Of a DNA stretch of 64,000 nucleotides, positions 21,598 to 56,904 are shown piece after piece. This stretch comes from an archaeon (GTDB lineage Archaea > Aenigmatarchaeota > Aenigmatarchaeia > GW2011-AR5): contig JANQNA010000007.1 in the NCBI GenBank assembly GCA_028279825.1, positions 183,877-247,876 on the forward strand, given 5' to 3'. Each line of letters starts with the position of its first letter. Within the stretch, counting starts at the first letter, position 1. Below the pieces are notes generated by a model. That model made no database searches, had not been told where the DNA came from, and saw only the letters and a list, made by a program, of their open reading frames with translations. A program made the position numbers and the translations under genes.

Positions 21598-21765
21598 ATG
21601 CTTTCGAAAGAAATTCTGGATATACTGGCCTGCCCGAAGTGTAAAAACGGAGTGGCTTACGACAGGGACAAACAGAAACTGGTATGCTCAATCTGCAAGA
21701 TAAAATTCAACGTTCTGAAAGGCGATATACCTGATATGCTTTTAGAGAATGCGAAGAAAATCTAG
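21598..21765 (+). CDS. Trm112-family small zinc protein, 55 aa
   Basis: Hand translation MLSKEILDILACPKCKNGVAYDRDKQKLVCSICKIKFNVLKGDIPDMLLENAKKI; below ORF-track cutoff. Confidence 0.85.
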   Translation: MLSKEILDILACPKCKNGVAYDRDKQKLVCSICKIKFNVLKGDIPDMLLENAKKI

Positions 21766-22319
21766 CTTAGATTTTCCAGACCTTTCCACCATTCTGTAGA
21801 ATTCATGCTTTTCATTTCTTTGAATAACCTTTTAGCAGATTCTGTTTTGAGGTATCTGTCATTTTTCTCCATCCAATATAAGCAGCCTTTGTGGCCGGAA
21901 TCTGCATATTCTTTTGCCTGGAATAACAACTCCAGGCTGTCAGCATCTCTTGCTATGAGAGCTTCTTTGGAAGTTTTATTGTTGAATTCTTCCAACAGTT
22001 CAATGATATCTTCTGCGCCTATGGACTTCATCTGTTCCGTGAAGGCCTGCAGTTCTGCCTTATCCTTGTTTATGTACCTTTGCGCAACCTTGTCAAGATC
22101 ACCTATTCTGGTCTCAGGAATATCATGGAAGGCACACATCTTCATTACTTTGTCGACATCTGCGCCCTCAAGTTTTGCCAGAATGTAGCCTATTATTGTG
22201 ACCCTGTGGGAGTGTTCGGCCACACTTTCCGGATTAGGGACACCTTCTGCCTTGAACCAGGCTCTTCGTATACGCTTCAGGCTACCAGCCTCAAAAATAA
22301 ATTTTGCTATTTCCTTCAT
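21762..22319 (-). CDS. HD-domain hydrolase (YfbR/HDDC2-like 5'-nucleotidase)
   Basis: FIFEAGSLKRIRRAW, ESVAEHSHRV, FHDIPETRIGD, RDADSLE. Confidence 0.92.
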   Translation of the reverse strand: MKEIAKFIFEAGSLKRIRRAWFKAEGVPNPESVAEHSHRVTIIGYILAKLEGADVDKVMKMCAFHDIPETRIGDLDKVAQRYINKDKAELQAFTEQMKSIGAEDIIELLEEFNNKTSKEALIARDADSLELLFQAKEYADSGHKGCLYWMEKNDRYLKTESAKRLFKEMKSMNSTEWWKGLENLS

Positions 22320-22372
22320 TTGTACGTATAGAATACAATCTTTTTAACTCTTAGAAAGAAGCTATCAAGAAA

Positions 22373-22529
22373 GCTGGGATGGCAGAACTTGGTAAACGCG
22401 CAAGCCTGGAAAGCTTGTTCTCCGAAAGGGGAGCGAGGGTTCAAAACCGAGGAAGGATATCCTTCCTAAGGTGTTACCAACCTTAGGTGGCTTTGCATGC
22501 TACATCGGATGAAATTCCCTCTCCCAGCG
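22373..22529 (+). tRNA. tRNA-Ser(GGA), with predicted 70-nt intron in the T-loop (22446-22515); CCA not encoded
   Basis: Acceptor GCTGGGA/TCCCAGC; anticodon arm CAAGC-CTGGAAA-GCTTG; variable arm TTCTCC-GAAA-GGGGAG; T-stem GAGGG/CCCTC split by the intron; splicing restores TTCAAAT. Confidence 0.9.
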
Positions 22530-38711: not shown

Positions 38712-38838
38712 GCGGGGATACCCAAGTCTGGTCAAAGGGGCAGGACTTAAGACACCTTTTTGGGAAAAAGCTGTACCAAAAACGTGACGGAAATCCTGTG
38801 GCTTAGTGCCTGCGAGGGTTCAAATCCCTTTCCCCGCA
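38712..38838 (+). tRNA. tRNA-Leu(TAA) with predicted 41-nt intron (38752-38792) at the canonical 37/38 site; CCA not encoded
   Basis: Acceptor GCGGGGA/TCCCCGC; anticodon stem CAGGA/TCCTG; loop CTTAAG^A; T-arm GAGGG-TTCAAAT-CCCTT. Confidence 0.92.
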
Positions 38839-55881: not shown

Positions 55882-56370
55882 TTACTCCTGCTGTATCCTG
55901 AACCTTTCCCTTATTTTGTCCCTCATTGAGTGAATATCATCCTTGGCAGCCTCAAGATACACCCTTCGCTGCTTGTAGTAAAAACCATAATTGTAGAACC
56001 ACCAGAACCATCTCTGGATGAAATTGCCGTATTCGTACTTTGTTTCTACGGTGCCCTTCAGCTGGACGTAAAAATTACCCGTGCCGTCTTTAGGATCATG
56101 TACCCCCTGCACTATGACACGCACATACGTCTTCGTCCAGTTGTCTTCCTCACGTTTTCCCATCCAGACACCGTAAAAATCGTTTTTGGGTGAGGTGACA
56201 TCCCAGCGTATATCTGTCTCCAGAAGATCCTTACCGGGGATCTTCATGGTGCTTTTTATCAGATCCGGCATCATGCCTAGAATAGCTACGGCTTTCGGGC
56301 CCTTATACTTCACCTTTGTTGCGTCGGCCGGTGCTGTTATATCGTCTATTATGTTGATTTTGCTCTTCAT
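55882..56370 (-). CDS. Uncharacterised protein, paralog A of adjacent pair
   Basis: Shares IxWDV...VxLKG...Y...RxFWxxFY...K with the next gene. Confidence 0.65.
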   Translation of the reverse strand: MKSKINIIDDITAPADATKVKYKGPKAVAILGMMPDLIKSTMKIPGKDLLETDIRWDVTSPKNDFYGVWMGKREEDNWTKTYVRVIVQGVHDPKDGTGNFYVQLKGTVETKYEYGNFIQRWFWWFYNYGFYYKQRRVYLEAAKDDIHSMRDKIRERFRIQQE

Positions 56371-56379
56371 AAAAATAAA

Positions 56380-56904
56380 CTAAAGCGTCTCAGTCTTGCC
56401 CTCACGAAGGGCTTCGCCAAAGTGTTTTATGCTGCTTTCCATTGACGTCAGTAATTCTTTTCCCATGTTGAGGAATTCCATACGTTTTTTGTGATAAAAT
56501 GACTGGTGCCAGAAACGCCTTACCATTTCATACAATATATTCTGCTGCCATACTGTGTCCTGAGGGTATTCTGTAATAAGTCGCGGCTTAAGACGGATAA
56601 CGGCCTTTCCTTCACCACCCGATACGAAGCCTTTCAGGGAAACTTCCGTGACTATGTAAGAATAAATGTCCAGAATCTTGTTCACTTCCCAGTCTATCTC
56701 GAATTTCTCTGAATCCTTGCCCTTTTCCCATGAATAGGTTTTTTCCTGTACATACGCGTCAGGGACGTTGAAAACTGTACGTATTAGCTCGTTGATTTTC
56801 TTGTAGAATAATTCCGGGTGCGGGCCTACGTAAGATATGCGGATATCCTTGACAGGTTCAAATATATAGTCCCAAATAAGCAGCTTGGTCCTTGCCCATA
56901 CCAT
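56380..56904 (-). CDS. Uncharacterised protein, paralog B of adjacent pair
   Basis: IDWEVNKILDIYSYIVTEVSLKGFVSGGEGKAVIRLKPRLITEY...RRFWHQSFYHKKRMEFL. Confidence 0.65.
   Translation of the reverse strand: MVWARTKLLIWDYIFEPVKDIRISYVGPHPELFYKKINELIRTVFNVPDAYVQEKTYSWEKGKDSEKFEIDWEVNKILDIYSYIVTEVSLKGFVSGGEGKAVIRLKPRLITEYPQDTVWQQNILYEMVRRFWHQSFYHKKRMEFLNMGKELLTSMESSIKHFGEALREGKTETL

Follow-up and report, generated by a model that had tools for sequence, protein, structure and literature searches.

The tRNA-Ser(GGA) gene and its T-loop insert

Within the window (the whole 64,000-nt stretch of archaeal DNA analysed here), a tRNA-Ser(GGA) gene carries 70 nt of additional sequence in its T-loop, which raises the question of whether this is a working gene with a removable intron and, if so, what removes the insert and where it came from. 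On the sequence evidence, which comprises the gene itself, its fold and boundaries, covariation, family copies and homologues of EndA and RtcB, we consider it highly probable that the locus is a functional tRNA-Ser(GGA) gene, present in one copy, with a protein-spliced 70-nt bulge–helix–bulge (BHB) intron at position 59/60, and that this intron is one member of a structured family whose copies have spread. The gene occupies 22373–22529 on the + strand, from nucleotide 1 to the discriminator G73, as delimited by sequence, ARAGORN and a blind excision scan, and CCA is not encoded at its 3′ end. All cloverleaf parts named in a preliminary description made from the sequence alone are in place at these coordinates, namely the acceptor GCTGGGA/TCCCAGC, the anticodon arm CAAGC-CTGGAAA-GCTTG, a long variable arm and a split T-arm. 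The exons pair perfectly apart from the D-stem, where A12–C23 (22384, 22397) are mismatched in the mature tRNA and relatives carry T23; the mismatch is possibly tolerated or edited. Some 30 nt upstream of nucleotide 1 lies a TATA-like CTTTTTAA (22340–22347, +), a putative promoter element, and the string ACAATCTTTTTAA is also found upstream of the tRNA-Ser(GGA) orthologues in two genomes of the same genus (G002 and G003).

The intron (22446–22515, +) separates a 5′ exon of nucleotides 1–59 (22373–22445, +) from a 3′ exon of nucleotides 60–73 (22516–22529, +). ARAGORN yields no tRNA from the tRNA-Ser(GGA) precursor or from the window as a whole, and calls a full tRNA-Ser(gga) once 22446–22515 is excised; a blind scan of the genome for BHB-compatible excisions, covering 37 tRNA genes, arrived at this very interval for Ser(GGA), in agreement with the 70-nt T-loop intron first proposed. 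In the minimum free energy fold of the T-arm plus intron, the T-stem strand GAGGG (22435–22439, +) forms the outer helix h with CCCTC (22517–22521, +), and the exon strand TTCA (22440–22443, +) forms the central helix with the intron strand TGAA (22510–22513, +), a helix further supported by an A-U to G-C change in a tRNA-Lys(CTT) copy of the intron described below. The central helix lies between a 5′ bulge AAA (22444–22446, +; predicted cut after 22445) and a 3′ bulge ATT (22514–22516, +; predicted cut after 22515), as had been suspected from the BHB-like pairing. Inside it, the intron helix h′ pairs CCGA (22447–22450, +) with TCGG (22505–22508) and encloses three hairpins, two of which had been named beforehand: P1, GGAAGG-ATAT-CCTTCC (22451–22466, +), with double-sided changes in relatives; P2, TAAGGT-GTTACCA-ACCTTA (22467–22485, +), with TTAC conserved in the loop among relatives; and P3, GTGGC-TTTGCAT-GCTAC (22487–22503, +), likewise supported by fold and relatives. 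Cuts after the second nucleotide of both bulges yield the T-loop TTCAAAT; these are the AA^A and AT^T cuts originally suggested, and the resulting spliced sequence is a full tRNA-Ser(GGA) joined at 59/60.

The junction thus has the 4-bp central helix, two 3-nt bulges and two flanking helices of a BHB, and departs from the strict form by a single additional intron nucleotide that faces the 5′ bulge, an unpaired A (22509, +) between h′ and the central helix. The precursor fold lies 4.2–4.4 s.d. below dinucleotide shuffles (z = −4.35), with 0 of 200 shuffles as stable. Among 20,000 shuffles of the intron alone, with the exons kept fixed, 0.11% gave a perfect 4-bp central helix together with an in-register intron helix of 4 bp or more; the identical junction fold appeared in 0 of 1000.

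Orthologous loci and tRNA introns of the host genome

Orthology of the locus is anchored by a neighbouring gene (21762–22319, −; HD-domain-like, a motif label assigned by eye) that was matched by tblastn to the loci in G001, G002, G003 and G015. In G002 and G003, where the homologous neighbour adjoins the tRNA gene, the T-arm of Ser(GGA) is uninterrupted; both genes have D-arm introns instead, and that of G002 additionally has a variable-arm intron. The Ser(GGA) genes of G001, G011 and G016 carry different 59/60 introns with the inner helix GGCC/GGCC instead of CCGA/TCGG, and that of G015 carries a T-loop intron one position off 59/60 (position read by hand). T-loop introns at 59/60 are already known in other archaea, and non-canonical positions including this one are documented (PMC4090602); together with the orthologue comparison, this supports the reading of the insert as a 59/60 BHB intron of a known type. 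The documented introns and ours are alike in the 59/60 site, the BHB-type junction, the restoration of a standard T-loop and the many introns per genome. The rich sources in that work are Crenarchaeota and Nanoarchaeota, whereas the host here is a DPANN archaeon, and the present intron differs further in having three hairpins and relatives outside tRNA genes. In tRNA-Ser(GCT) of a distant relative (G074; L048 1536–1562), there is an apparent 10-nt insert at 59/60, below the size of a BHB stem.

The host genome (978 kb in eight contigs, estimated 91% complete) appears rich in tRNA introns: only 8 of 37 located tRNA genes are intron-free, in a set where the automatic splicer left 3 of the 37 unsolved and some of its solutions with several introns are questionable. 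Introns at 59/60 are present in at least five host tRNA genes, namely Ser(GGA), Ser(GCT), Arg(TCG), Arg(TCT) and Val(CAC). BLAST with the spliced tRNA found just one Ser(GGA) gene, so that a second, intact copy, raised at the outset as an observation that would speak against the intron, did not appear; because the genome is estimated to be 91% complete, some room is left for another. These observations bear on the possibility that the gene is dead or decaying, its T-loop broken by an insertion and the copy unused. The A12–C23 mismatch would fit such decay, as would the finding that, where eukaryotic tRNA genes are present in many copies, those with a T-loop insertion are often pseudogenes (PMC4090602). 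However, no other Ser(GGA) gene was found in the genome, the exons of this one are otherwise perfectly paired, the insert retains the BHB and covariation, and at least four other host tRNAs have an interruption at this site too; we therefore regard decay as extremely unlikely, and consider it very likely that a working tRNA gene here carries a BHB intron, which would be spliced from the transcript. What counts against this preferred explanation is the EndA without its catalytic lysine (see below), the one extra junction nucleotide, the A12–C23 mismatch and the 91% completeness.

Several further observations concern introns of this genome and its relatives. The Arg(TCG), Arg(TCT) and Val(CAC) introns of the host (L112, L032 and L031) are similar to each other, 32–33 nt long and all at 59/60. 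The D-loop introns of Thr GGT, Ser GGA and Ser GCT have a common sequence, CCTTTCTTTGnAAAGAAAG ... GGCTTCGCAATATTAAAGAAAGG (L023 about 1428–1510; L035, L062 and L052 upstream of the matched exons), and are a candidate second family of transposed introns. A tRNA-Leu in the window (38712–38838, +; TAA according to the automatic splicer) is interrupted close to the anticodon by an intron of about 41 nt, and is the sole tRNA of the window to reach the Rfam gathering score. A hairpin motif that other introns had seemed to repeat did not recur within the window. The 3′ portion of the 16S rRNA gene (L005 1–729) is about 180 nt longer than in the Rfam archaeal model, and the insert may be an rRNA intron. 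As to the identity of the host, a Kef-type neighbour protein (label by eye) shares 52% and 46% identity with proteins of two Candidatus Aenigmatarchaeota MAGs, on which basis we assign the host to Aenigmatarchaeota with moderate confidence.

Related intron copies in other tRNAs and in protein-gene spacers

New here are homologous copies of the intron at the T-loop site of Ser(TGA), Ser(CGA) and Lys(CTT), plus copies in spacers. A search with the intron alone found T-loop copies at 59/60 in tRNA-Ser(TGA) of G002 (90% identity, E 1.6e-21) and tRNA-Lys(CTT) of G010 (80%, E 1e-13), and a covariance model run over 160 genomes, trained on only three T-loop copies, added a fourth at 59/60 in tRNA-Ser(CGA) of G001. 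Among these four copies, 10 of 32 base pairs show double-sided changes. In the Lys(CTT) copy the host T-loop reads TTCG and the intron ends in CGAA, such that the central helix is altered on both strands. Covariance-model matches above 40 bits were confined to the host's archaeal family (f1), with several of these matches belonging to the training set of the second model; matches of 20–29 bits beyond the family, as well as the short BLAST matches L134, L136 and L138, were treated as chance. In the tRNA-Ala(TGC) genes of G012 and G017 the copies match on the opposite strand, which is possible because the intron hairpins are palindromic.

Outside tRNAs, shortened copies of the intron lie in protein-gene spacers, mostly directly after stop codons. 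In G002, a 45-nt piece sits between vapB-like and vapC-like (PIN-like) genes (labels by eye). In G003, spacer copies found with the covariance model start right after the stop codons of a thermosome gene, a NUDIX-like gene and a small cysteine-rich ORF, and one further copy lies between two ORFs; all have common ends, GCCGAG...GCTCCTATTA, that vary slightly. The NUDIX-like gene of G003, downstream of the thermosome gene, is flanked by two direct copies (L184, L191–L194), and is missing from the corresponding spacer of G000 (the host) and G001, while G002 seems to retain a remnant. Set against the hallmarks of a MITE-like DNA transposon, which are terminal inverted repeats, a target-site duplication and a related transposase, the G003 spacer copies show common ends and one pair that encloses a gene, while neither a duplication nor a transposase was established; the element is about 45–105 nt long and encodes nothing. 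An exact-pattern scan of viral contigs gave no match, and a virus origin was set aside.

Such copies, in several T-loops and in spacers, place the intron in a structured family that is dispersed and apparently mobile. Similar introns could also have arisen by gene conversion between tRNAs or by common descent rather than by movement of the intron alone, as near-identical T-loops across tRNAs make short-tract recombination possible. Three observations argue against this and lead us to consider it rather unlikely: the T-stems beside the copies are dissimilar (GAGGG, GCAGG and GCGGG), G002 has the intron in Ser(TGA) and lacks it in Ser(GGA), and copies occur outside tRNAs too. Similar introns in different isoacceptors with dissimilar flanks, together with an empty orthologous locus in G002 and G003, are the signs expected of a transposed intron. 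We consider the family likely mobile, with copies presumably spreading among the T-loops of different tRNAs and into the protein-gene spacers of the host's archaeal family.

A 2010 study, as cited in PMC4090602, describes very similar introns in different isoacceptors of related species, as here; set against what is cited of that study, the present family has its full copies at one site (59/60), an intron end that follows the host T-loop, and shortened spacer copies. The mechanism of tRNA intron transposition is called unknown in PMC4090602. For Caldiarchaeum, a model in which mobile elements disrupt tRNA genes (PMC3293823) similarly involves tRNA intron gain over short evolutionary time; that gain was tied to mobile DNA, whereas no evidence for an integrase or attachment site emerged here. 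With one intron in four tRNAs, empty sites, a compensatory change and spacer copies, models of archaeal tRNA intron gain can be compared at this family.

Putative splicing enzymes

If the intron is spliced by the archaeal protein machinery, the T-loop TTCA of the transcript would pair with the intron-end TGAA between the T-stem and the three-hairpin intron stem. EndA would then cleave both bulges, behind AA on the 5′ side and behind AT on the 3′ side, and ligation of the exons by RtcB would restore the T-loop TTCAAAT. A three-subunit or dimeric endonuclease had been suggested for such a relaxed junction. This expectation did not hold: the genome has one short, single-gene EndA, plus an RtcB ligase homologue. 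The EndA gene (L026 1474–2091, −; G000:C2 near 56150–56428), identified by Pfam and PDB alignment, encodes 196 aa in two domains, both found as Pfam domains. A Pfam search to E 0.1 for a second subunit in the host returned nothing beyond a weak match that falls within a long, unrelated ORF. Each family-f1 genome with a match has exactly one EndA homologue, a short gene, and the three-unit (epsilon-type) EndA of a relative, used as query, found only this same gene in the family.

The best PDB relative of the host protein is the alpha4 EndA of M. jannaschii (1A79; E 4.5e-34), which it resembles in being a single short gene product with N- and C-terminal domains and equivalents of Tyr115 and His125. 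In contrast, the equivalent of Lys156 is Ala, and the loop between Tyr and His is longer and Lys-rich, like that of N. equitans NEQ205. In an alignment to M. jannaschii EndA of 31 sequences from the class, all short or alpha-type, the catalytic Tyr and His are each kept in 31/31, and the catalytic Lys in 0/31 (Ala in 29, Ser in one, Thr in one), so that the Tyr-His-Lys triad characteristic of alpha4 EndA is incomplete. Lys is kept in two epsilon-type paralogues of the same class and in NEQ205. According to published work, all four EndA types conserve these three residues (PMC6379350), and Ala substitutions abolish activity in two EndA enzymes (PMC12397907). To our knowledge it is new that the sole EndA homologue of the host's archaeal family lacks the catalytic Lys; as two enzymes lose cleavage when this Lys is substituted by Ala (PMC12397907), the host EndA allows the catalytic mechanism to be tested directly. 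The loop before the catalytic His contains conserved lysines, in a KKGPK stretch, and our guess is that one of these replaces the catalytic residue. Alpha4 EndA is listed as narrow in specificity (PMC6379350), whereas the host genome has many non-canonical introns.

The missing Lys, from the sole EndA and from all 31 short sequences of the class, is also what would favour removal of the insert by a self-splicing group I-like RNA or by another nuclease, rather than by EndA at a BHB. An Rfam scan of the window matched no group I intron or other ribozyme or structured RNA, its sole match being a tRNA elsewhere in the window, and we rejected a group I or other known RNA identity for the insert. 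At 70 nt the insert is below the size needed for a group I core, and the BHB covaries with the host T-loop; removal other than by EndA is accordingly very improbable.

More speculatively, the EndA-spliced BHB intron might represent a mobile structured DPANN RNA/DNA element that survives in essential tRNA genes at 59/60 by forming a BHB from its own ends and the conserved T-loop, and so is hidden by splicing, that also lands beside protein genes, and that is removed by an EndA lineage without the classical Lys, perhaps via a lysine in the loop before His. We put this forward as a tentative proposal, the chances of which we place somewhat below even.

Within this one archaeal class EndA architectures vary widely, ranging from the single short gene to an adjacent two-gene pair, a fused double domain and the epsilon type, and some genomes of the class hold two EndA types.
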